A DNA stretch of 12,011 bases, from positions 1 to 12,011 of the forward strand of contig CADCUU010000389.1 in NCBI GenBank assembly GCA_902805995.1, read 5' to 3'. The stretch is from an uncultured Rubellimicrobium sp. GTDB lineage: Bacteria > Pseudomonadota > Alphaproteobacteria > Rhodobacterales > Rhodobacteraceae. Each line of letters opens with the position of its first letter. The first letter of the stretch is position 1. Position numbers and translations under genes: made by a program. Below the pieces are notes generated by a model. That model had not been told where the DNA came from, did not search any database, and saw only the letters and a program-made list of their open reading frames with translations. Below, piece by piece: positions 1 through 12,011 of the stretch.

Positions 1-553
1 GGTGGAGCCCGAGGCGGAGCTCACCGTCCTGCCCGCACCCTCCGGCCCCGGTGGCGAGGGCGGCCTGCGCGCCATCGACGTCAGCAAGGAAGGGCGCGGC
101 TTCGCCATGTCGGTCCTCTCCGAGAACAAGGAGGAGGTCGTGGCCCTCATGGACTTCATGGCCTCTCCCGAAGGGCAGATGCTCGACCGCCTGGGCTTCG
201 AGGGCGAACACTACACCCGCAACGGTGACGCTATCGAGGTCACGCCCGAGATCAGCACTTGGTACGCCCGCTTCATGGCGGCCGCAAACTGGGAGGCACC
301 GGTCGAGTGGCGCTCCGAGGCGGCGGCGCGCTCGCTCGAGATGGTGGACGAGGACTTCGTGGCCGACAACGCTTTCGTGTTCCCGGCGGAGTACGCGGCC
401 GATCTCGACGCCGCCAACAACGTCTATAAGGCCTGGTCCTTCCGCTTCATCTCGGGCGAGGCCTCCATCGAGGAGGAGTGGGATAGCTTCGTCTCTGAAT
501 GGAACGCGGCCGGCGGCGAGCGCCTGACCGAATACGCGCGGTCAGTTCTTTGA
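1..553 (+). CDS. Extracellular solute-binding protein of an ABC importer, LplA-like (3' part only)
   Basis: The last 183 or so residues of a periplasmic solute-binding protein are visible; the gene begins left of the window, so the GTG at position 2 is an internal codon, not a start. The tail contains the stretch FISGEASIEEEWDSFVSEWN followed by a GGERLTEYA segment. This resembles the C-terminus of large LplA/YtcQ-type binding proteins of the CUT1 carbohydrate importer class, where a 'FI.G...-eWD.fv..w...GG..l' pattern is usual. The earlier segment (ALMDFMASPEGQML) fits the helix near the domain hinge of such proteins. The protein would capture a sugar-like solute in the periplasm and deliver it to membrane permeases. 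The stop overlaps the next start by 3 bases (TTGA at 550-553), placing it in the same operon as the hydrolases. A MalK-type ATPase lies downstream, but no permease gene is in view. The family is fairly sure; the ligand is unknown. Confidence 0.82.
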   Translation, partial: VEPEAELTVLPAPSGPGGEGGLRAIDVSKEGRGFAMSVLSENKEEVVALMDFMASPEGQMLDRLGFEGEHYTRNGDAIEVTPEISTWYARFMAAANWEAPVEWRSEAAARSLEMVDEDFVADNAFVFPAEYAADLDAANNVYKAWSFRFISGEASIEEEWDSFVSEWNAAGGERLTEYARSVL

Positions 554-1743
554 GCACAGCCCCGAACATCTCCGGACCCTCGCTTCGCTCCAGGGTCCGG
601 GCCATGCTTCATGGTATCGCCCTGGGCGATGCCATGGGCGCTCCAGTCGAGAAATTGTCGGCCGCCGAGATCGCGTCCCTCTACGGGCGCGTGACCGGCC
701 TCGACACGGCTTGGCATCGGGCTGGCGACGATGCCCATGCCCGCAACCACCGCATCCGTGGCCACGGCATCGTCACTGACGACACGCTGATGACGTTCGC
801 GCTGATGGGGGTTTACGAGGAAGTGGGCCGCCATCTCGACGCCTGGGACATGGCGGGGCCGCTCGTGCGCCGCATCGCATGGGAGCCAGTTTGGATCCCC
901 GAGATGGAGCGCGAAGCTCCCCTGATCGACCGGCTCTTCCATCCCGAGAAGTGGATCTTCCAGCGACTCCAGCTTGCCGCCTGCGACCCGCGCCAGGGCG
1001 GCGTGGGCAACATGGTGAACTGCGGGGCGGCCATGTACATCGCTCCTGTGGGCGTGGTGAATGCGGGCGACCCCCGGGCCGCCTATGAGGAGGCGGTGGC
1101 CTTTGCTATGGGCCACCAGCAAAGCTACGGGCTTGAGGCCGCGGGAGTGATGGCCGCCTGCATAGCGGCCGCGTTGGCACCCGGCGCGACGCTTGGCGAC
1201 GTGGTGGAGGCGGCGCTGTCCCTGGCCAAGGATGGGACCCGGGCCGCGATCGCCGCCGCAGTCGGACGCGCCGAGGAGTTGCGAAGGCAGGGGACCGTCG
1301 GCATCGAGGCCGCACATGCCCTCCAGGCGGTCCTCGCCCCCTATTCGCCCATGGGCGACGACGTACGCCACGGGCCCGGCAAGGCCGGCGTGCCTACCGC
1401 CGCCTACCAGCCATCGCGCCTCCTTTCCATCGAGGAGCTACCATTGGCGCTCGCCTTCGCCGTCTTGGCTGGCGGCGAGTTCCGCGAGGCAGTCGTCGAA
1501 GGCATCAACTCGGGCCGCGACACCGACTCGATCGGCGTCATGGCCGGAGCCATCCTGGGCGCGCTGCATGGCGAGGACGTCATTGCCCCAGAGGATGCGG
1601 CGACGCTCGACCGCGCCAACCGCTTCGACCTCGCCGCGGCGGCCGACGCCTTCTACGACACGGCGCTCCGCATCCTGCGGGACGACGTCGCCGCCGCCGA
1701 AGCCTTGGCCGCCCGGCGCCGCGCCCTTTTCGCCGCAGCATGA
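550..1743 (+). CDS. ADP-ribosylglycohydrolase family protein (first of a tandem pair)
   Basis: A 397-residue enzyme of the ADP-ribosylglycohydrolase (DraG/ARH) fold, which uses a binuclear metal centre to hydrolyse N- or O-glycosidic bonds to ribose or related sugars. The N-terminal family pattern is clear: RVRAMLHGIALGDAMGAPVE at residues 15-34. The metal-binding TDDT is at 76-79, an NCGAAMYIAPVG segment at 158-169 matches the usual 'GnGaaMRiaPvG' loop, and the second metal motif appears as GRDTDS at 322-327 (usual form GGDTDT). I chose TTG at 550 because it overlaps the previous stop as TTGA and starts just before the conserved domain. The ATG at 499 would add 17 residues that lie inside the previous gene. 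No signal peptide is apparent, so it is probably cytoplasmic. Its place between a binding protein and an importer ATPase suggests action on an imported small glycoside rather than on ADP-ribosylated protein, but that is inference. Confidence 0.85.
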   Translation: MSTAPNISGPSLRSRVRAMLHGIALGDAMGAPVEKLSAAEIASLYGRVTGLDTAWHRAGDDAHARNHRIRGHGIVTDDTLMTFALMGVYEEVGRHLDAWDMAGPLVRRIAWEPVWIPEMEREAPLIDRLFHPEKWIFQRLQLAACDPRQGGVGNMVNCGAAMYIAPVGVVNAGDPRAAYEEAVAFAMGHQQSYGLEAAGVMAACIAAALAPGATLGDVVEAALSLAKDGTRAAIAAAVGRAEELRRQGTVGIEAAHALQAVLAPYSPMGDDVRHGPGKAGVPTAAYQPSRLLSIEELPLALAFAVLAGGEFREAVVEGINSGRDTDSIGVMAGAILGALHGEDVIAPEDAATLDRANRFDLAAAADAFYDTALRILRDDVAAAEALAARRRALFAAA

Positions 1744-3851
1744 CCGACAAGGACCTCATGACACCCGACCACATCCTCGCCCGCATATACGCGGGCATCT
1801 TAGGTAAGGCGATCGGCGTGCGCCTGGGCGCGCCTGTGGAGCCCACGATCTGGACCTATGAGCGCATCCGCGACACGTACGGCGACATCACCGGCTACCT
1901 GAAGGAGTTCCGCACCTTCGCCGCCGACGATGATACGAACGGGCCGCTCTACTTCACACGCGTCTTGCGCGACTATGGCCTCGATTTCACGGCCGAAGAC
2001 ATGGGCAAGACCTGGCTCAACTACGCCGCCGAGGAGCATGGGATGTACTGGTGGGGCGGCTTCGGGCGCTCAACCGAGCATACCGCCTGGGCCAACCTGC
2101 GCGCCGGCATCCCGGCGCCACGCTCGGGCAGCATCGAGCAGAACGGCGCCGCCGTCGCCGAGCAGATCGGCGGTCAGATCTTTATCGACTCCTGGGGCTG
2201 GGTCCATCCCGGCAACCCTGGCCGCGCCGCCGCAGACTCCGCCAAGGCGGCCAGCGTCGCGCACGATGGCGAGGGCTTGGAAGGGGCGCGCTTCGTAGCG
2301 GCCGCCGTCGCCGCAGCTTTTACAGCGAAGAGTTTGCGTGAGGTGTTTGACGCCGCGATGGCGACGCTGAACCCGGAAAGCACCTACACATCGGTCGCTC
2401 GCGCCGTCGAAAGCTTCCACGCCTCGCGCTCGGATGACTGGCGAGCCTGCCGCGAGATGCTCGGAGCCGAGTGGGGCTACGACCGCTACCCGGGCGTGTG
2501 CCACATCATCCCGAACGCGGGCGTCCTGGTTATGGCGCTCCTTTATGGGAACGGCGACCTTAACCGGACAGTCGAGATCGCCACGATGGCCGGATGGGAC
2601 ACCGACTGCAACGCCGGCAATGCAGGCGCCATCGTGGGCACCCTTCAGGGCCTTGACCCCTCCTGGGACAAGTACCGCAGCCCTATCAACGATCTCCTCA
2701 TTGCCTCGGGCGTGACTAGCAGCCTCAACATCACCGACATCCCTTCCTTCGCACGGGAGCTAGCCACGCTTGCCTGGCGACTGAGAGGCGAGGAAGTGCC
2801 GGCGGCGTGGACCGAGGACTGGGAGCGCAAGGGCGTGCGCTTCGACTTCGCTCTGCCAGGCTCCACCCACGGCTTCCGCGCCGATGCGCCGAACGGACCG
2901 CAGGTGGTGCTCAAAGGCTCCGCGGGGGGCGAGGAGGGGGCATTGGAGATCCTCCTCGACCGAATGGAGCGCGACCAGCCCGGCAGGGTCTTCTGGAAGC
3001 CCTTCTTCCGCCGGTCGGAGTTCGAGGACGAGCGCTACCGACCCATGCTCACCCCGGTCGTCGCAGACGGTCAGCGCGTCTCCTTCCGCGTGCGTCTCGA
3101 CCCTTGGGAGGGTGACGGCCACTTCCGCATCGCACCTTACGTCCGCCGTGGCCTGTCCGGCCACCTCGAGGGGACCGGACCTTGGCAGGTCCCTCCGTCC
3201 GAGGGCTGGGGCGAGATCGAATTCGACATCCCGGCGGGCAACGGGGATCCGGTGGACGAGATCGGCGTCCAGCTCGAATACTTCGGCCGTGTCAAGTTCC
3301 TGGGCCGCCTGTTCCTGACTGACTTCCGCGTGGAGGGCGCTGGCCATCGCGTCGTCGACGCGGCCCGGTCGGTCCAGGAATGGGACACAATCCTGCAATG
3401 CAGTTGGAACCGGGGCCGATGGACCCTGGAGGACGGGAGGATTCAAGGCCACACCGCCACCGACGCCGACCTCTGGACCGGCAACCTCTACGCTACCGAC
3501 CAGAGCGTGAGCGCACGTGTCACGCCGCTGGCAGGGCGCTCGCACTTGGTGTCGGTCCGGGCCCAAGGGACGGCTCGCTTCTACGCCGCCGGTCTTCAAG
3601 ACGGGGAGTTCGTCCTCCTTCGCGAGGATTTCGGGACCGAGATTCTGGCCCGCGCACCGTTCGAGGCAGCTCCGGGCAAGGAGTTGGAAGTGGTATTGGA
3701 GGCGGTCGGCGACCGGCTCTCGGCCCGGGTGGAGGGCGGCCCCTCGGTCGAGGCGGCCTGCGGACGCTTCCGCTATGGCATGGCGGGGCTGCGCATGGCG
3801 GGGCCAGGTCGGATGCGCGCATCCCGCTTGGAGATCCGCGAACTGGTCTGA
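1740..3851 (+). CDS. ADP-ribosylglycohydrolase with large C-terminal beta-rich extension (second of the pair)
   Basis: A 703-residue protein, about twice the usual length of the family. Residues 1 to about 350 form an ADP-ribosylglycohydrolase domain: ILARIYAGILGKAIGVRLGA at 12-31, metal motif DDDT at 63-66, and a second metal motif GWDTDCNAGNAGAIVG at 285-300 (usual form GGDTDT.a.iaGai.G). After a linker, about 390-535 looks like a beta-sandwich, and about 545-703 (WTLEDGRIQG..., repeated short strands, ending SRLEIREL) resembles a LamG/concanavalin-like or DUF1080-type carbohydrate-binding domain. The ATG overlaps the preceding stop by 4 bases (ATGA), implying translational coupling. It shares only the core motifs with the upstream paralogue, so the two probably act on different bonds or anomers of the same imported compound, or as a hetero-pair. 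The hydrolase domain assignment is strong; the names of the C-terminal domains are tentative. Confidence 0.83.
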   Translation: MTDKDLMTPDHILARIYAGILGKAIGVRLGAPVEPTIWTYERIRDTYGDITGYLKEFRTFAADDDTNGPLYFTRVLRDYGLDFTAEDMGKTWLNYAAEEHGMYWWGGFGRSTEHTAWANLRAGIPAPRSGSIEQNGAAVAEQIGGQIFIDSWGWVHPGNPGRAAADSAKAASVAHDGEGLEGARFVAAAVAAAFTAKSLREVFDAAMATLNPESTYTSVARAVESFHASRSDDWRACREMLGAEWGYDRYPGVCHIIPNAGVLVMALLYGNGDLNRTVEIATMAGWDTDCNAGNAGAIVGTLQGLDPSWDKYRSPINDLLIASGVTSSLNITDIPSFARELATLAWRLRGEEVPAAWTEDWERKGVRFDFALPGSTHGFRADAPNGPQVVLKGSAGGEEGALEILLDRMERDQPGRVFWKPFFRRSEFEDERYRPMLTPVVADGQRVSFRVRLDPWEGDGHFRIAPYVRRGLSGHLEGTGPWQVPPSEGWGEIEFDIPAGNGDPVDEIGVQLEYFGRVKFLGRLFLTDFRVEGAGHRVVDAARSVQEWDTILQCSWNRGRWTLEDGRIQGHTATDADLWTGNLYATDQSVSARVTPLAGRSHLVSVRAQGTARFYAAGLQDGEFVLLREDFGTEILARAPFEAAPGKELEVVLEAVGDRLSARVEGGPSVEAACGRFRYGMAGLRMAGPGRMRASRLEIRELV

Positions 3852-3852
3852 C

Positions 3853-3858
3853 AGGAGG
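3853..3858 (+). promoter_or_regulatory. Strong Shine-Dalgarno sequence of the importer ATPase gene
   Basis: AGGAGG lies 8 bases before the ATG at 3867. This is the only intact junction in the operon with a gap rather than a start/stop overlap, so the ATPase can be translated independently of its upstream neighbours. It also fixes the start codon. Confidence 0.7.
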
Positions 3859-3866
3859 GAGCGGGG

Positions 3867-4922
3867 ATGGCCGAGATCGAGCTCAGGGACGTCGGCAAGT
3901 CCTACGGGGCGCTTGACGTCCTACGAGGCATCTCGCTCAGCATGGACAAGGGCGAGTTCGTGGTCCTAGTGGGCCCTTCGGGTTGCGGCAAGTCCACGCT
4001 GCTCCGAATGATCGCGGGGCTCGAGGAGATCACGGAGGGCGAAATCACCATCGGCGGGCGCGTGGTCAATGACATCCCGTCCAAGCAGCGCGACATCGCC
4101 ATGGTGTTCCAGAGCTACGCGCTCTACCCGCACATGAAGGTCGCGGACAACATGAGCTTTGCCCTCCGCCTTGCCGGCGCGCCCAAGGCCGAGATCCGGC
4201 GGCGGGTGGCGGAGGCGGCTGAGATCCTGGGCCTCGAGGCCCTTCTTGACCGCCTTCCCCGAGACCTGTCGGGCGGGCAGCGGCAGCGCGTTGCCATGGG
4301 ACGAGCTATTGTGCGGGACCCTCGTGCCTTCCTCTTCGATGAGCCACTCTCGAACCTCGACGCCAAGCTGCGCGTGAAGATGCGCGGCGAGATAAAAAAG
4401 CTCCACCAGCGGCTCGGCCGTACCACCATCTACGTCACTCACGACCAGACCGAGGCGATGACGATGGCCGACACCATCGTCGTGATGAACGCGGGCCAGG
4501 TCGAGCAGGCGGGCCCGCCACTCCGGCTCTACGAGGACCCGGACAATGCGTTTGTCGCGGGCTTCGTGGGATCGCCCGAGATGAACCTGCTCCAAGGGCA
4601 GGCGGAAGGCGGTCGCTTCCGGTCGGACCAGGGACTGGTCCTGCCGCTGCCCCCGATAGGGGCCACAATCGAAGGCCGACGCCTGACCTATGGCCTGCGG
4701 CCGCAGCATATCCGCCCTCAACCCGACGGAATAGAGGCCGTGGTCGAACTCGTGGAGCCCACCGGCGACTCCCAGGAGGTGGAACTGCGCTGCGGAGCCA
4801 CCGCCCTCACGATGCTCTTGCATGAGTACACGCCGCTCTCGCCCGGGGATCAGCTCAGGGTGGGGTTCGATGCGGCGCAGGTCCGTCTGTTCGACGCAGC
4901 GACGAGTCTGCGCGTTCGATGA
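3867..4922 (+). CDS. MalK/UgpC-type ABC importer ATP-binding protein
   Basis: The 351-residue ATPase subunit of a carbohydrate (CUT1) ABC importer, acting at the inner face of the cytoplasmic membrane. All nucleotide-binding motifs are intact: Walker [10 protein letters not shown] at 36-44, Q-loop in [10 protein letters not shown] at 80-89, signature LSGGQRQR at 134-141, Walker B FLFDEP at 155-160, D-loop SNLD, and H-loop [14 protein letters not shown] with H192. The remaining C-terminal third, from about residue 235, is the OB/TOBE regulatory domain typical of MalK, UgpC and MsmX. The length matches the family. It presumably energises uptake together with the binding protein at the left edge and permeases outside the window. 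The family is often annotated ugpC, but nothing here shows glycerol-3-phosphate as substrate, so no symbol is given. Confidence 0.93.
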
Positions 4923-6130
4923 CCTATGTCCGCAAAGAGTGGGATCCCGCAGCCCAGGGGCCGCTTCACGGGCTGCGCGTGCTCGACCTGTCCCGGCTCG
5001 TTGCCGGCAACATGCTTTCTCTCCAGCTCGGCGACTTCGGCGCCGACGTCATCAAGGTCGAGCCGCCCGAAGGCGACCCATTGCGGGCCTGGCAGGAGGA
5101 CGGCCTGTCGCTCTTCTGGACCGTCTACGGCCGCAACAAGCGCTCGGTGGCGCTCAACCTGCGGCGTGACCCCGATCGCGCCGCGCTCTGGGCGCTCGTC
5201 ACGCAGGCCGACGTGCTCGTGGAAAGCTACCGTCCTGGCACGCTCGAAGAGATGGGGTTCGCGCCCGACGCGCTCCTTGCCCGCAACCCGGACCTAATTG
5301 TGGTGCGCATCTCGGGCTTTGGACAGACCGGACCCTATTCCGGGCTGCCAGGCTTCGGCACGCTCGTCGAAGGGATGTCGGGATATGCGCACCGGTCGGG
5401 CTTTCCCGATCGCGAGCCCGTCCTGCCGCCTATCGCGCTTGCTGACATGATGGCGGGACTCCAGGGTGCGATGGCGGTGTTGGTGGCTTTGCGAGCGCGA
5501 GAGCGGGGCCTCGCGCGGGGTCAGGTTATCGATCTGTCACTCCTCGAGCCCATCTTCGCGAGCCTAGGCCCGGAGGCGGCCATCCACGCGCTGACTGGTC
5601 ATGTCAAGGAACGGATGGGGAGCGCCTCGAATACTGCGAGCCCGCGCAACGTCTACCGATGCGCAGACGGACGCTACGTCTCACTCTCCGGCTCCACCCC
5701 CGGAGCTGCGCGACGCATTTTCGAGGTCATCGGGCGGCCCGACATGAACAACGACCCGCGCTTCGCCACCAACACCGCCCGCTTGGCGCACCGCGAGCAA
5801 GTGGACGAGGCAGTGAGCGCCTGGTTCGGCCAGCGCGACCGCGACGAGGCCCTTGCGGCCATGCGGGCCGCGGGCGCGACTGTCGGGCCGATCTATTCTA
5901 TTGCCGACGTTGCGGAGGATCCCCATTTCCGCGAGCGCGAGGTGATCGTCACGCTGGACGACCCAGAGCTTGGGCCCCTGCCCACACACAACGTCGCCCC
6001 GCGCCTCAGCGCCACGCCCGGTCATCTTCGCCGCCCTGCTCCCCGCCTCGGCGAGCACGGCCGCGAAGTGCTGGCCGAAGCCGGGCTCTCGGACGCAGAG
6101 ATCGACGTCCTGTTGGCCGCGCTGTCATGA
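4919..6130 (+). CDS. CaiB/BaiF family (class III) CoA-transferase
   Basis: A 403-residue family III CoA-transferase, which moves CoA from a donor acyl-CoA to a carboxylic acid through an aspartyl-CoA thioester. Visible family features are [15 protein letters not shown] near the N-terminus (18-32), [20 protein letters not shown] (37-56), the [11 protein letters not shown] segment (71-81), and [14 protein letters not shown], where D176 aligns with the catalytic aspartate. The C-terminal part (APRLSATPG...[20 protein letters not shown]) is also typical. The ATG overlaps the ATPase stop as ATGA. Because the next gene is a CitE-like lyase, the likely product is a 3-hydroxyacyl-CoA (for example malyl-CoA- or citramalyl-CoA-like) that the lyase then cleaves. 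The exact acid and CoA donor cannot be read from the sequence. Confidence 0.92.
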
Positions 6131-6942
6131 GGCTCCGGTCTCTTCTCTACGTCCCCGCGCACGAGCCTCGCTTCCTGGCCAAAGCGCATGAGCGGGGGGC
6201 CGACGCAATTATCCTGGACCTAGAGGACGGCGTTCCGGTTATCGCAAAGCTCGCCGCGCGGGAAGGACTCCCGTCGGCATTGGCGGCTGCCGGCCGGGCG
6301 AAAGCCCCTGTCTTCGTCCGCGTTAACGCAACCGCCGAGAGCCGGGACGCCGACGTGGCCGCGGCGATTGCCGGCGGCGCGGACGGGATCGTGCTCCCCA
6401 AGGTTGGCTCGCCCGACGAAGTCGAGGCGGTCCTGCGTGCAGCCGGGCGCGCAACGAAGGTGATCCCCCTCATCGAGGACCCCGGCGCCCTGGTCCAGGC
6501 TGCGAGCATTGCGGCGCACCCTTCCGTCCTCGCCATGGGCCTTGGGGCCGAGGACTTCGCCACCGCCATCGGCGCGCGCCCCCTGCCGGAGGTGCTGCGC
6601 CTGCCGAAGCAACTCGTCCATTACGCTGCTAAGGCTGCGGGTCGCCTGTCCCTCGGGATGTTTCGCAGCGTTGCCGAGATCTCGGACCAGGCGGCCATTC
6701 TTCAGGCAGCCGTCGAGGCGCGCAGCTTCGGTTTCGACGGGGCCGCCTGCGTTCACCCGTCCATCGTCCCCCTACTGAACCGAGGCTTTAGCCCGAGCCC
6801 TGACGAAGTGGCCGAGGCCCGGGCCCTTCTCGCGACTCTCGGCGAGAGCGGAGCCGCCCGGTTTCAAGGCAGGATGATCGACAAGCCTGTAGCCGATCGG
6901 GCCCGGCGAACCCTCCTCTTGGCTGGCGAGGACGAAACATGA
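6127..6942 (+). CDS. CitE/HpcH-HpaI family CoA-ester lyase
   Basis: A 271-residue TIM-barrel lyase of the citrate lyase beta/malyl-CoA lyase group, which uses Mg2+ to cleave 3-hydroxyacyl-CoA esters into acetyl- or propionyl-CoA and a 2-oxo acid (glyoxylate or pyruvate). Motifs seen: RSLLYVPAHEPRFLAKA at 4-20, LDLEDGV at 30-36, RVN at 65-67, LPKV at 90-93, the metal-ligand region LIEDPGA with E117, MGLGAEDFATAIGA at 137-150 (second acidic ligand D143), and CVHPSIVP at 208-215. The ATG at 6127 overlaps the CoA-transferase stop (ATGA). The reading frame is open back to 5659, but that stretch lies inside the CoA-transferase gene and lacks lyase features. Length is near that of stand-alone CitE-like proteins. 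With the preceding transferase it forms an activate-then-cleave pair, as known for malate, citramalate and itaconate breakdown. Confidence 0.9.
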   Translation: MRLRSLLYVPAHEPRFLAKAHERGADAIILDLEDGVPVIAKLAAREGLPSALAAAGRAKAPVFVRVNATAESRDADVAAAIAGGADGIVLPKVGSPDEVEAVLRAAGRATKVIPLIEDPGALVQAASIAAHPSVLAMGLGAEDFATAIGARPLPEVLRLPKQLVHYAAKAAGRLSLGMFRSVAEISDQAAILQAAVEARSFGFDGAACVHPSIVPLLNRGFSPSPDEVAEARALLATLGESGAARFQGRMIDKPVADRARRTLLLAGEDET

Positions 6943-7013
6943 CGCGCCGAGCCGGTGGCAGGCCGGTCTCGGTCGTGACTGACTGCCGGGTCACGCGGGG
7001 TTCGCACATCTGA
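6939..7013 (+). pseudogene. 24-codon ORF continuing the operon overlap chain, possible gene remnant
   Basis: An ATG at 6939 overlaps the lyase stop as ATGA, exactly like other junctions of the operon, and opens a frame of 24 codons starting MTRRAGGRPVSVV and ending at TGA 7011-7013. No family is recognisable. The overlap pattern suggests that a further catabolic or regulatory gene once followed and has been truncated, with the downstream tRNA-like scar marking the break. It could equally be chance, since ATGA arises readily. Confidence 0.3.
6947..6972 (+). terminator. Hairpin just after the catabolic operon
   Basis: CCGAG-CCGG (6947-6955) pairs with CCGG-T-CTCGG (6963-6972) around a 7-base loop, with one bulged T. 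It starts 5 bases after the lyase stop. There is no T-run after it, so it is a weak intrinsic terminator at best and may instead stabilise the mRNA end. Confidence 0.35.
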
Positions 7014-7061
7014 GCGCATGATATCGGCGGTCACAGTTGCTCCAAGCATAAGCTTTGTGTC

Positions 7062-7104
7062 GGAGGTTCGAATCTGGTTGCGGGGACAAAATTTAGACTG
7101 TGGC
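7062..7104 (-). other. Decayed tRNA 3'-end-like sequence (possible attachment-site remnant)
   Basis: Read on the minus strand, positions 7085 down to 7075 are CCCCGCAACCA, the acceptor end plus CCA of initiator/elongator tRNA-Met in many bacteria. The preceding minus-strand bases (GTCTAAATTTTGT) resemble a T-arm altered by several C-to-T changes. Directly abutting on the plus strand, GGTTCGAATC (7065-7074) is a textbook T-loop sequence in the opposite orientation. No anticodon arm, D-arm or cloverleaf can be built, so this is not a functional tRNA. It may be a relic of island integration or a dispersed repeat. Confidence 0.35.
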
Positions 7105-7139
7105 GGACGACCCAGCTCCTGTTGCGCTCTCGCTAAATG

Positions 7140-7157
7140 GGCGCTTCGGGTGGCGCC
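7140..7157 (-). terminator. Weak hairpin after the P-loop protein gene
   Basis: GGCGC (7140-7144) pairs with GCGCC (7153-7157) around an 8-base loop, just beyond the stop of the minus-strand gene ending at 7165. On the minus strand it is followed by CATTT only. The stem is short, so this is a tentative call. Confidence 0.2.
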
Positions 7158-7164
7158 GTGCAGG

Positions 7165-7707
7165 TCATCTTACCGCGGCAGTAAGGCTGGCCAGGACGAA
7201 GTCGGCTCGCTCCGCCACGCTGACTTTGGGCAGGAGAATGACTTCGTAGCACAGGGCCGGACAGGCGACGAGGAGTCGCTCGTACTCGGCCACCGCCTGG
7301 TCCATCCCATGCCGCCGCTCCTTGTCGGTCCGGTAGATCCCCGGCCAAGGCGGAGCCATAAACACGCGCTGGTGGTACCAGTCAGCCGCAAGGCTTTCGA
7401 CTGCGGGTCGTCCTGTCAGGTGCTCCAGACCCACAGCCGCGTCCACGAGACCCCGGTCGAAGAAGGTCCACCCCCCGAGATCCTTTGCCGCCGCATAGTC
7501 CTGCCGCGCCATCTCAAACGCCCGGCGCGCAAACGCGACCATATCGGCCCAAGGCAGTGCGGCTCCGCCGCTCGCAAGCTCCTGCGCAACGATACGGCGG
7601 CCGGGCTCCTCCACCACCCGATGTTCCCGAGTGGCAAGCTCTGCAAGGAGCGTCAACTTGCAGCCGCCGGAGCAGCCCGTGACCAGAACGAGGTGGTCGC
7701 GGCCCAT
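7165..7707 (-). CDS. AAA_28/NadR-like P-loop ATPase with damaged Walker A motif
   Basis: A 180-residue protein resembling the small 'predicted ATPase' group with the AAA_28 (NadR/Ttd14-like) domain, whose cellular role is not well defined. The start is HLVLVTG with the P-loop at 11-19 reading GCSGGCKLT, where the family has GGPGSGKST-like sequence: the glycine before lysine is cysteine and the following serine is leucine. Other family features persist: VVEEPGRRIV at 31-40, TFFDRGLVDA at 81-90 (Walker B region), APPWPGIYRTDKERR at 118-132, and YEVILLPKVSVAERADFVL at 154-172. ATG 7707 was chosen; an in-frame TGA lies six codons upstream. Two non-synonymous changes in the one essential motif suggest early decay or loss of nucleotide binding, although the frame is intact over the full expected length. 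Confidence 0.75.
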   Translation of the reverse strand: MGRDHLVLVTGCSGGCKLTLLAELATREHRVVEEPGRRIVAQELASGGAALPWADMVAFARRAFEMARQDYAAAKDLGGWTFFDRGLVDAAVGLEHLTGRPAVESLAADWYHQRVFMAPPWPGIYRTDKERRHGMDQAVAEYERLLVACPALCYEVILLPKVSVAERADFVLASLTAAVR

Positions 7708-7832
7708 GATGTTCAGGATCCTTCAACACTGACACTGGCCAAACTGAGCAAGGACGACGCCTTTGGGTTCACGAGCGTGGTCCCTTCGCCGGGGCAAACG
7801 GGCGACGGACTGTTGGAGGCCACGAACCAACC

Positions 7833-7861
7833 TTTAGATCGTTTGTCATGCAGTGGCTCAA
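7833..7861 (-). promoter_or_regulatory. Possible housekeeping-type promoter for the P-loop gene
   Basis: On the minus strand TTGAGC (7861-7856) and TCTAAA (7838-7833) are separated by 17 bases, each matching four of six consensus positions of a -35/-10 promoter. It lies in the 163-bp gap between the YdeI-like gene and the P-loop gene. The match is modest and the -35 overlaps nothing else. Confidence 0.25.
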
Positions 7862-7870
7862 TACATCAAC

Positions 7871-8491
7871 TCACCGCTCTATTGCGCCTTTGCCAGTCAT
7901 GATCCTGGTGCGGAACCTGGCGATCCGGGCCACTCGGGTGGCGAACGTCTTAGCCGAACTGAGGGCGATCACGTAGCTCTTCTGGCGACCCGGCGTCAGC
8001 GCATGGAAGGCCTCGGCCAGCTCGGGGTCGGCATCCAGCGCCGCGACCAGCTCGTCTGGCAGGTCGAGCGAGTACTCCTCCTTGGCTGGCTTGAGGCCCT
8101 GCTCCGCATAACCCATCGCTTCGCGCAGGTAGGACAGGATCACTGGCTTTCTCTCCGCCACCTGCTCGTTGCCGCTGAAGCGGATCATGTCACGATGTCG
8201 GGTGTTGGGGCCCTGCCGCTCCAGGATGCCCGCGGGGTCTTTCAACAGGGCTGCGTTGAGGAAGCTCAGGCGGAAGTCGCCCCGGAACGCGCCGATGATC
8301 GCGATGTTACGTTCCGCATGCATGTAGCAGGGATGTGCCCACTTCACGGTCTCGGTGAGTCCCGCGTCCCGGCAGAGGCGGCGGAGGTCAGCCAGTCCCG
8401 GCGCCCAGGGCCGCGTCGAGCAATCCGGGGTGGCGAAGCGGTCGCAGCGGCCGCAACCTTTGGTGAAGTAGTCATCAACCTCGGTGATCAT
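7871..8491 (-). CDS. YdeI/OmpD-associated family protein (DUF1801 plus OmdA-like)
   Basis: A 206-residue protein of the YdeI family. The N-terminal DUF1801 domain shows a cysteine-bearing start (C13, C16, C24 in GCGRCDRFATPDC), then ETVKWAHPCYMH at 47-58, NIAIIGAFRGDFRLSFLNAA at 62-81 and LLKDPAG. The C-terminal OmdA-like part contains YLREAMGYAEQGLKP, LDLPDELVAALDADPELAEA, FHALTPGRQKSY and a basic tail TRVARIARFRTRIMTGKG. The biochemical role of the family is unknown; some members have been linked to stress or peptide resistance. The ATG at 8491 has GGAG about 6 bases upstream. It follows the sigma gene on the same strand with a 110-bp gap, so co-transcription is possible but not shown. Confidence 0.85.
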   Translation of the reverse strand: MITEVDDYFTKGCGRCDRFATPDCSTRPWAPGLADLRRLCRDAGLTETVKWAHPCYMHAERNIAIIGAFRGDFRLSFLNAALLKDPAGILERQGPNTRHRDMIRFSGNEQVAERKPVILSYLREAMGYAEQGLKPAKEEYSLDLPDELVAALDADPELAEAFHALTPGRQKSYVIALSSAKTFATRVARIARFRTRIMTGKGAIER

Positions 8492-8601
8492 CGGAAGCTC
8501 CGGCAGCGAACAAGGAAGGCTGAGGTTCGGGCGATCCAGAGGTTACGCCCGACGCGTCGATTGCGGAAGAGTTCGGCCGGGCGTCGCAGGAATGGCTTTG
8601 G

Positions 8602-9522
8602 TCACGGGCGGTTCCCGTCCGGCGACCTCCCCTGCCCCTCCTCGTCCCGGTCTGGGAGAAGACAGAGGTCGAGCCGCCACAGGCGCTCGGGCTCAGCGAT
8701 TACCTCGATGGCGAGGATGACGCCTGCGGCGACCACGAAGGTCAGGACACGCTCGACCTGGCCGCGTGGCGCGGCGACAAGGGCTGGGGCACCGTCCACG
8801 AGCATGAGCAGGGCCGCACCGGCCGCCGCACTCGCGCGGGTCGCCACGGTTGTGGACCCTCTCACCTGGCTCGGGGCACCCGGCGGCAGGAGGCTCGCGT
8901 CGATGGTCAGGGTGACATCGGGATCGAGAAGACGCAGGAGCTGGTCGAGGCGACCTCCGCGCGCGGCCTCGGCAAATGCTGCGACTACCGCCGCCCGGGC
9001 CGTGATGTCGGTCGCTCCTCGGTCCGGAGCGCCCCGCACGCGCCGCCGCGCCCGGCTCGCGAGCTGACGCACGGCCACGGTTGAGCGGCCGAGGACGGCA
9101 CCCACCTCCTCGAAGGAAAGGCCGAAGAGGTCATGGAGCACGAAGGCCAGTCGCTCGGCCGGGCCGAGGCGGTCGAGTACAACCACAAACGCCAAGCCCA
9201 CGGCGTCCGCCAGGATCGCTGCCGTCTCGGGGCTGGGTGCCGGGTCGGGCACTTCCAGGGGCTGCCCGGTCGCATCCTCGAGAGGTTCCTCGGCGCGGCG
9301 CCGACGCTGCCGGAGTCGGTCAATGGCGGCACGGACCACCACCGTCGAGAGCCAGGCGCCCAGGTTGTCGATGCCCTCCGGCCCGGCCCGCGTCAGGCGC
9401 AGCCACGCGTCCTGCACCACGTCCTCGGCTTCGGCAGCCGAGCTTAAGACCTGAGCCGCCAGCGCCACGAGGCGCGGCCGATCAGCCGCAAAGCGCTCTG
9501 CTGCAACCTCGAAAATCGGCAT
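8602..9522 (-). CDS. ECF RNA polymerase sigma factor with SnoaL-like C-terminal domain (ECF41/SigJ-like)
   Basis: A 306-residue extracytoplasmic-function sigma factor. Sigma region 2 covers about 10-75 (AEDVVQDAWLRL at 32-43, then the DNA-melting segment up to AAIDRLRQRRRR). Sigma region 4 covers about 105-162 (LSFEEVGAVLGRSTVAVRQL helix-turn-helix at 135-154). A C-terminal SnoaL-like domain follows at about 176-285 (LLDPDVTLTID, VRGSTTVATRA, IEVIAEPERLWRL). In ECF41 and SigJ-type factors this domain modulates activity in place of a separate anti-sigma. No anti-sigma gene is adjacent. The canonical WLPEP linker motif of ECF41 is absent; the linker reads AEEPLEDATGQPLEVPDP. The start at 9522 is set by a strong AGGAGGG; the frame is open further upstream to 10062 but that part is antisense to the YCII gene. 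An exact ECF41-type promoter precedes it, implying autoregulation. Confidence 0.9.
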   Translation of the reverse strand: MPIFEVAAERFAADRPRLVALAAQVLSSAAEAEDVVQDAWLRLTRAGPEGIDNLGAWLSTVVVRAAIDRLRQRRRRAEEPLEDATGQPLEVPDPAPSPETAAILADAVGLAFVVVLDRLGPAERLAFVLHDLFGLSFEEVGAVLGRSTVAVRQLASRARRRVRGAPDRGATDITARAAVVAAFAEAARGGRLDQLLRLLDPDVTLTIDASLLPPGAPSQVRGSTTVATRASAAAGAALLMLVDGAPALVAAPRGQVERVLTFVVAAGVILAIEVIAEPERLWRLDLCLLPDRDEEGQGRSPDGNRP

Positions 9523-9526
9523 CCCA

Positions 9527-9533
9527 CCCTCCT
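9527..9533 (-). promoter_or_regulatory. Shine-Dalgarno sequence that fixes the sigma factor start
   Basis: On the minus strand AGGAGGG is followed by TGGG and then the ATG at 9522-9520. This decides the start against the 180-codon upstream open frame. Confidence 0.7.
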
Positions 9534-9552
9534 GGACCGCCCTACTCTCCTT

Positions 9553-9579
9553 GACGACCGGCGGCTTCGGATTGTGACA
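9553..9579 (-). promoter_or_regulatory. ECF41-type promoter facing the sigma gene (autoregulation)
   Basis: On the minus strand TGTCACA (9579-9573), exactly 16 bases, then CGTC (9556-9553). This is an exact match to the promoter pattern described for ECF41 sigma factors. CGTC ends 30 bases upstream of the sigma start codon, a suitable leader length. Confidence 0.72.
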
Positions 9580-9612
9580 CCGGGTCAGAGAAGAGTTCCG
9601 ATGCCGCACACG

Positions 9613-9639
9613 TGTCACGCTCTCCGGTCGCCGATCGTC
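9613..9639 (+). promoter_or_regulatory. ECF41-type promoter facing the YCII gene
   Basis: TGTCACG (9613-9619), exactly 16 bases, then CGTC (9636-9639). It differs from the ECF41 pattern by the last base of the -35 element only. The -10 element lies 69 bases before the YCII start codon. Together with the oppositely directed copy it forms an inverted repeat, GTGACAC (9574-9580) and GTGTCAC (9612-9618). Confidence 0.68.
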
Positions 9640-9708
9640 AAGAAGATACGGCGCTCGGGAGTCCTCTCCACGGTCGCGCCGCACCCATGACAGCAAGGAC
9701 CAACTCCG

Positions 9709-10053
9709 ATGAAGTTCGCTCTGATGATCTACCAGCCCCACCCGTTCGACACGAGCGCTTACTCCCCGGAGGAATACCAGGAGATTGCCGGCGGCTATGC
9801 TGCGATCAACGCCAGCCCTGGTGTCACGCCCGGGGTACCGCTGGGCGCTGTCGCCAAGGCCGTGACGGTGCGCGTCAAAGACGGCGAGACACGGACGGCC
9901 GAAGCCCCCTACGCCGGCCCGGCCGGGGCGGTGGGAGGCTACCTGATCTTCGAGGCCGAGAGCCTGGAAGACGCGGTGGCACTCGCCGCCCGGGTGCCCG
10001 CGGCCCGGCTGGGCGGCGCCGTCGAGGTCCGCCCCTGCGAGGTCTACTGGTGA
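9709..10053 (+). CDS. YCII-related (DGPF-type) protein, likely target of the divergent ECF sigma factor
   Basis: A 114-residue YCII/DGPF-family protein with a ferredoxin-like alpha/beta fold. It starts MKFALMIYQPH, has SPEEYQEIAGGYAAINA (19-35), a central AVTVRVKDGETRTAEAPYAG (51-70), GGYLIFEAESLEDAVALAAR (76-95) and the C-terminal GGAVEVRPCEVYW (102-114). The usual DGPF(A/V) signature is replaced by EAPYAG at 65-70. Family members are small proteins of uncertain catalytic role, often encoded beside ECF sigma factors. AAGGA 9 bases before the ATG is the likely ribosome binding site. The gene diverges from the sigma gene and carries an ECF41-like promoter upstream, so it is probably under that sigma factor's control. 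Ligand and function are unknown. Confidence 0.85.
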   Translation: MKFALMIYQPHPFDTSAYSPEEYQEIAGGYAAINASPGVTPGVPLGAVAKAVTVRVKDGETRTAEAPYAGPAGAVGGYLIFEAESLEDAVALAARVPAARLGGAVEVRPCEVYW

Positions 10054-10074
10054 CGCGGCCATGTGCCGGGAGCG

Positions 10075-10093
10075 GCGGGGAGCGGTTCCCCGC
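10075..10093 (+). terminator. Hairpin after the YCII gene
   Basis: GCGGGGA (10075-10081) pairs perfectly with TCCCCGC (10087-10093) around a 5-base loop, 21 bases after the YCII stop. No T-run follows, so intrinsic termination is uncertain. Confidence 0.4.
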
Positions 10094-10244
10094 GCCTTGA
10101 CGGGTCCGAGCAGAGGCCCACATCAGCCAGCGCCGCAGCCCCAGGCCGCGGTGCCCAGCCGGCGTATCCCGAAGGAGAGCCCGATGACTGCCGTCATGTC
10201 CAACCTGACCGACCCGATCCTCGATCATCAGGACATGACCCGTC

Positions 10245-12011
<1,767 letters not shown>

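Follow-up and report, generated by a model that had tools for sequence, protein, structure and literature searches.

The ECF41 sigma factors with a divergently transcribed COE gene (carboxymuconolactone decarboxylase (CMD), oxidoreductase or epimerase) were described by Wecke et al. in 2012 (PMC3426412). These factors carry a fused SnoaL/NTF2-like domain, have no anti-sigma gene and recognize TGTCACA-N16-CGTC upstream of both divergent genes, with a single local target. Of the 55 loci with this gene order, 36 carry the motif upstream of the sigma gene and 41 upstream of the COE gene (PMC3426412). The motifs by which the ECF41 linker contacts the C-terminus are described in PMC7730460, as is SigG1 of S. 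tsukubaensis, an ECF56 factor with a separate anti-sigma factor, RsfG. The ECF42 factors have a TPR-type extension, TGTCG promoters and a YCII partner gene (PMC8999054, PMC6180224). Bidirectional sigma-70 promoters, in which two opposed promoters with closely placed starts serve divergent genes, are described in E. coli (PMC12825309).

The locus considered here lies in a window of 12,011 nucleotides, by which we mean the whole stretch of DNA analysed. The start codons of an ECF sigma gene (9522, minus strand) and a YCII gene (9709, plus strand) are separated by 186 bp (9523–9708). The original prediction, that this gap contains two outward-pointing copies of the reported ECF41 target, one exact and one with a single mismatch, both with 16-base spacers, agrees with the sequence and with the motif published in PMC3426412. 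The exact copy, TGTCACA-N16-CGTC, occupies 9579..9553 of the minus strand and points to the sigma gene; its −35 element is at 9573..9579 and its −10 element, CGTC, at 9553..9556, 30 nt from the ATG, with AGGAGG (9528..9533, minus strand) as the likely ribosome-binding site. The other copy, TGTCACG-N16-CGTC, at 9613..9639 of the plus strand, points to the YCII gene and has G instead of A at position 7 of the −35 element (9613..9619); CGTC (9636..9639) is 69 nt from the ATG, and the likely ribosome-binding site is AAGGA (9695..9699, plus strand). The two −35 elements are back to back, 33 bp apart (9580..9612), with the −10 elements on the outside.

The starts of such promoters seem to fall on the ninth base after CGTC. 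The two mapped ECF41 promoters start at G, followed by 22 and 23 nt according to the text of PMC3426412, but by 31 and 32 nt according to its Table 5, the difference being 9 in both organisms. If the larger values are taken to run from the end of the −10 element, a point on which that paper is silent, they would match the 30 nt of the window. In the promoter of SMc01149 (ECF42), the lower-case start letter in Table 1 of PMC6180224 is likewise the ninth base after CGTC. By the same rule the predicted starts are at about 9544 (minus strand) for the sigma gene and about 9648 (plus strand) for the YCII gene. No terminator-like site was found in 7700–10300.

The sigma gene (8602..9522, minus strand) encodes a protein of 306 aa. 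As in ECF41, its sigma core comprises only regions 2 (residues 14–76) and 4 (115–163), followed by a C-terminal NTF2/SnoaL-like domain (about 168–288), and no anti-sigma gene is present among its direct neighbours, the YCII and DUF1801/OmdA genes; in this it differs from SigG1. Other ECF groups bearing SnoaL domains are ECF56, ECF205, ECF294 and ECF295; class features were compared here for ECF41 and ECF42. The C-terminal third is confidently modelled by AF2 as an NTF2/SnoaL-like domain (pLDDT 87–96 in blocks of ten residues). In the Foldseek ranking for the model, SigJ of M. tuberculosis (5xe7) and SigG1 (7qh5), which also combine a sigma core with a SnoaL domain and are the closest solved structures, are followed by other ECF sigma factors and then by NTF2-like and ketosteroid-isomerase folds. 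The arrangement of domains in the model is uncertain (pTM 0.45), and over the whole locus the TM-score against SigJ is low (0.31–0.33). Pfam SnoaL_2 does not match the window sigma; it is listed for some of its relatives, the match in L117 being below the cut-off. In profile searches the protein is closest to the SigJ, SigX4 and SigI models, all below their cut-offs (200.6 against 271 for the NCBIfam SigJ). No plasmid match was obtained at E ≤ 1e-30, and the homologue searches yielded one distant match on a viral contig, with 35% identity.

The window sigma lacks three signature motifs of ECF41. WLPEP, in the linker between sigma2 and sigma4, is absent from it, as well as from all 27 proteins of the window clade and all 82 wider relatives, and is present in 13 of 13 canonical proteins; the latter are ECF41-like proteins from other genomes chosen for carrying WLPEP. 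In place of the C-terminal NPDKL the window protein has AEPERL; NPDKL is found in 0 of 27, 1 of 82 and 10 of 13 proteins, respectively. DGGG, also absent from the window sigma, occurs in 1 of 27, 1 of 82 and 11 of 13. SigJ of M. tuberculosis retains WLPEP in the alignment, unlike the window sigma. In a tree of 68 rows, which used 40 of the 80 relatives considered below and 12 of 121 sigma proteins, all WLPEP-less proteins except L130 fall into a single clade with 54 members (100/100), set off by a long branch beside the canonical ECF41; the proteins of the window type are a subclade of 11 (100/99, with the bootstrap not fully settled). Thus the promoter letters agree with those of ECF41, whereas the ECF41 linker-to-C-terminus contact motifs are absent. 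Because of this and the replacement of the COE gene by YCII, the designation "ECF41-type" is retained for the promoter and the architecture, but not for strict membership in the group.

The original prediction also held that a pair in the correct orientation is very unlikely to arise by chance. A first-order Markov estimate bears this out: the expected number of arrangements with one exact site and one with at most one mismatch, in the outward order, is 1.9e-8 per 186 bp. The window has a third site with at most one mismatch at 2499 (plus strand), within an ADP-ribosylglycohydrolase frame. Shuffled windows contain 0.15 such sites on average, and three sites were reached in none of 200 shuffles. 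The proposed scan of the whole genome (3.03 Mb) gives 21 single sites with at most one mismatch, compared to 12 for the reversed pattern, and the exact TGTCACR-N16-CGTC occurs at four places, two of which are the window pair. As a single motif is not rare genome-wide, the significance resides in the pair and its placement. Checking 19 genomic sites for location in open frames is uninformative, since both window sites themselves lie within long open frames. Hence further members of the regulon, which the scan was meant to find, are neither claimed nor excluded.

Conservation of the motif was assessed in 80 relatives of the sigma factor from named genomes (43–53% identity), the best 80 of 563 confirmed ones. 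Their loci were fetched by two conserved peptide words, and therefore counts of the recognition-helix signature in this set are biased toward presence. Within 300 bp upstream, TGTCACN-N16-CGTC directed to the sigma gene is found in 35 of the 80 loci (0.08 in shuffles) and is missing in 45, while the same motif pointing away is found in six (0.05 in shuffles) and both directions in five; control stretches of 300 bp inside the sigma gene contain it in none of the 80. If the first base is freed, the numbers grow to 50 sigma-ward and 31 outward (0.45 and 0.47 in shuffles). The back-to-back arrangement is seen in three of the 80, with gaps of 10, 10 and 16 bp, and additionally in L078 and L089 if a 17-bp spacer is allowed. 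A gene-blind search for back-to-back pairs with 15–45 bp between the −35 elements retrieved three of 398 genomes of the phylum, including that of the window, and none with the reversed pattern. The other two pairs (L130 and L131, around positions 1501–1585) each separate an ECF sigma gene from a divergently transcribed clpP, identified by Pfam in the L130 copy. Of the independent evidence for the promoter reading, the strongest is that all the pairs found blindly adjoin ECF sigma genes.

The relatives more often show another arrangement. In 23 of the 80 loci, two motifs face each other, and CGTC is separated from GACG by exactly 8 bp in 22 of them (L039, L041, L045, L052, L054, L057, L058, L060, L065, L066, L069, L071, L072, L075, L083, L091, L101, L103, L109, L110, L111 and L114) and by 11 bp in L061; 100 shuffles of each region yielded no facing pairs. 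The pairs occur in the Actinomycetota, Chloroflexota, Pseudomonadota and a Myxococcota bin, and how far they lie from the sigma start is variable. A divergent CMD gene is present upstream in 22 of the 80 loci (18 by a stricter coordinate rule), and a facing pair is found in 17 of these 22, as opposed to 6 of the other 58. We also searched for facing pairs regardless of genes, allowing gaps of 0–30 bp, in 168 genomes of one family, chosen because its member G397 was known to have such a sigma factor. Pairs were found in 16 genomes (8 of 47 genera), with none for the reversed control. All 16 (L174–L189) have a gap of exactly 8 bp and are located beside WLPEP-less sigma genes of this kind, with CMD found in 14. 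In the 38 units with this gap, the 44 free positions are 23–95% identical (median 55%), and therefore the spacing outlasts the sequence. The 62-bp unit of Ktedonobacter (L039) is a nearly perfect long palindrome spanning both facing promoters. In the locus of Catellatospora (L071), an ECF42-type sigma gene (6072–7298, minus strand) is within a few kb of the ECF41-like one (about 4000–4855).

With a gap of 8 bp, the ninth base after CGTC coincides with the G of the opposing GACG, so each promoter would start inside the −10 element of the other. This geometry points to one melted segment used by both promoters, with initiation in only one direction at a time. In the closeness of opposite starts the facing units resemble the bidirectional promoters of E. 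coli (PMC12825309), but they are built of ECF elements with a fixed gap. The window pair resembles the latter in having two opposed promoters for divergent genes and differs in being back to back and non-overlapping; as it lacks the 8-bp facing geometry, its two promoters should be independent. It is a tentative idea, to which we would give slightly less than even credence, that the large clade without WLPEP and NPDKL drives its divergent partner via a fixed 62-bp facing element with mutually exclusive initiation, and that the lineage of the window split this element into back-to-back promoters and exchanged CMD for YCII. The literature searched, which does not extend to the ECF reclassification paper and hence does not prove absence from print, nowhere describes the 8-bp face-to-face pair; the words palindrom, inverted and symmetr do not occur in PMC3426412. 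This unplanned result may carry more weight than the window pair itself.

Turning back to the window, the two sites very probably form a divergent promoter pair read by the adjacent sigma factor itself, with local positive feedback and one dedicated target. The original prediction of autoregulation together with control of the neighbour is thus supported by comparison, both with the relatives having the motif in front of the sigma gene and with the same arrangement in the divergent ECF41–COE loci of PMC3426412. Transcribing leftward, polymerase with the window sigma would produce more sigma factor, perhaps together with the DUF1801/OmdA protein; transcribing rightward, it would produce the YCII protein, perhaps together with the ABC exporter. 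Since 33 bp separate the −35 elements of this back-to-back pair, both promoters could in principle be occupied at once. The fused NTF2-like domain probably gates the activity of the sigma factor, presumably via a small ligand, given that no anti-sigma gene is adjacent. The sites, their geometry, conservation and chance level are shown by the analysis, as is the modelled domain fold; for this locus we infer from them binding, activity and autoregulation, as well as the signal and the function of YCII.

The weaker side of the pair is the YCII promoter. One may suppose that only the sigma-side site works in a sigma-dependent manner, the TGTCACG site being inactive or weak, and that YCII is expressed from something else. 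Position 7 of the YCII-side −35 element does deviate from the consensus: among 38 aligned paired units, 37 have A at this position on the sigma side and 36 on the partner side. The strict motif is also far more frequent sigma-ward than away in the relatives (35 against 6). Moreover, three imperfect sites (nhaX, uvrX and ypbE) were not activated by the B. licheniformis ECF41 (PMC3426412), which would count against a G at this position, although all three deviate in the −10 element too. On the other hand, the asymmetry is much reduced when the first base is freed (50 against 31), natural divergent pairs with TGTCACG on both sides exist in L130 and L009, and G at position 7 is seen on the partner side in L110 and L185. 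The spacer and the −10 element on the YCII side are exact, and no sigma-70-like promoter was found in 7700–10300. We therefore regard a one-sided pair as unlikely.

Still less probable is that the sites are operators of an ordinary transcription factor, with inverted TGTCAC boxes and no promoters. The TGTCAC and GTGACA halves indeed constitute an inverted repeat, and long palindromes are seen in some relatives, such as L039. Against this stand the spacer to CGTC, which is exactly 16 bp on either side, and the sigma-ward motif that has no opposed partner in 24 of the 80 relatives; the window sites fit the mapped ECF41-type starts, and no other regulator gene is seen adjoining the pair. As for two chance matches without function, the frequency of single sites in the genome (21, and 12 for the reversed pattern) is their only recommendation. 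The expectation for the pair, the conservation of the motif in the sigma relatives and the blind search, with its three genomes out of 398, all beside ECF sigma genes, make coincidence very unlikely. Hence we retain the divergent promoter pair read by the adjacent sigma factor.

The partner gene also sets the window apart from the described ECF41 loci, where it is COE. The YCII-domain protein (9709..10053, plus strand, 114 aa) matches PF03795 with E = 4.3e-7, above the cut-off. It has 473 homologues at E ≤ 0.001 and no match in plasmids at E ≤ 1e-8. A YCII neighbour is a feature of ECF42, and this feature the window sigma has. With the cut-offs applied, 31 loci with YCII relatives were obtained from further genomes of the family and class (30 distinct genes, L161 and L173 being one), and every one of them adjoins an ECF42-type sigma gene on the same strand; 10 of these loci had served to build the ECF42 profile that was then applied to all 31, and the remaining 21 of 21 match it too. 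TGTCGN-N15-18-CGTC is found within 350 bp upstream of 12 of the 30 distinct genes (13 of 31 rows), and the TGTCAC promoter upstream of none; the full 350 bp were available for 28 of the 30, with 221 bp for L152 and only 19 bp for L167. Therefore the promoter letters track the sigma class. TGTCG is absent from both strands of the 186-bp gap. The TPR-type extension DUF6596 is a mark of ECF42. It is present in both YCII-adjacent ECF42 factors scanned and absent from the window sigma. Thus the window has an ECF41-type sigma factor and promoters joined to a partner type known from ECF42.

No strong YCII match is seen in the 80 sigma loci of other genomes, where two weak ones score 18.7 and 20.3 bits. 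The second YCII gene of the same genome (C7) has no ECF42-type sigma gene on its 3.2-kb locus. In a quick tree of 28 of the 31 loci, repeated with 31 rows and 24 chosen window-type proteins, the window-type YCII proteins are a clade separate from those of the ECF42 type, with long branches; the placement of two long rows, L172 and L159, is unsure. A recent acquisition of YCII from an ECF42 locus was considered and dropped, as the tree splits the two kinds on long branches. Clusters of the sigma and YCII proteins coincide on equal-sized contigs for three of the first 27 sigma rows (0.39 by chance, P ~0.006) and for six of 116 overall (1.6 by chance). This is suggestive of a general sigma–YCII pairing in the window clade. 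The sigma rows with equal-sized YCII contigs do not form one group in the tree, and their clustering is equalled by many shuffled labellings (161 of 500 give a value as low).

The DUF1801/OmdA (YdeI-like) gene (7871..8491, minus strand) is downstream of the sigma gene on the same strand and is a possible operon mate. On the other side, an ABC exporter gene (10245..12011, plus strand), cut by the contig end, follows the YCII gene on the same strand, and read-through from the YCII promoter is possible. A congener (G003; locus L006, 978–2952) has no counterpart of 9499–11619 of the window, a segment that comprises the beginning of the sigma gene, the two promoters, YCII and the greater part of the exporter. 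What the congener retains is a sigma remnant with a broken frame, next to a DUF1801/OmdA gene that looks intact. Further away, 499–6942 of the plus strand contains two adjacent genes of the ADP-ribosylglycohydrolase family, a MalK-type ABC ATPase, a class III CoA-transferase and an HpcH/HpaI aldolase-like frame; the run has the look of an operon for catabolic transport.

An autoregulated divergent locus of the ECF41 type is of a known kind; the novelty lies in YCII as the partner, in the absence of the signature motifs and in the contrast to the fixed-gap pairs of the relatives. The latter would be an ECF counterpart of bidirectional promoters. If they act as proposed, the split promoters of the window and its dedicated YCII would uncouple the expression of the sigma factor from that of its target. 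The locus joins the promoter and architecture of ECF41 to the partner of ECF42, in a clade without the reported intramolecular switch motifs, and it therefore asks how these one-component sigma factors are controlled.
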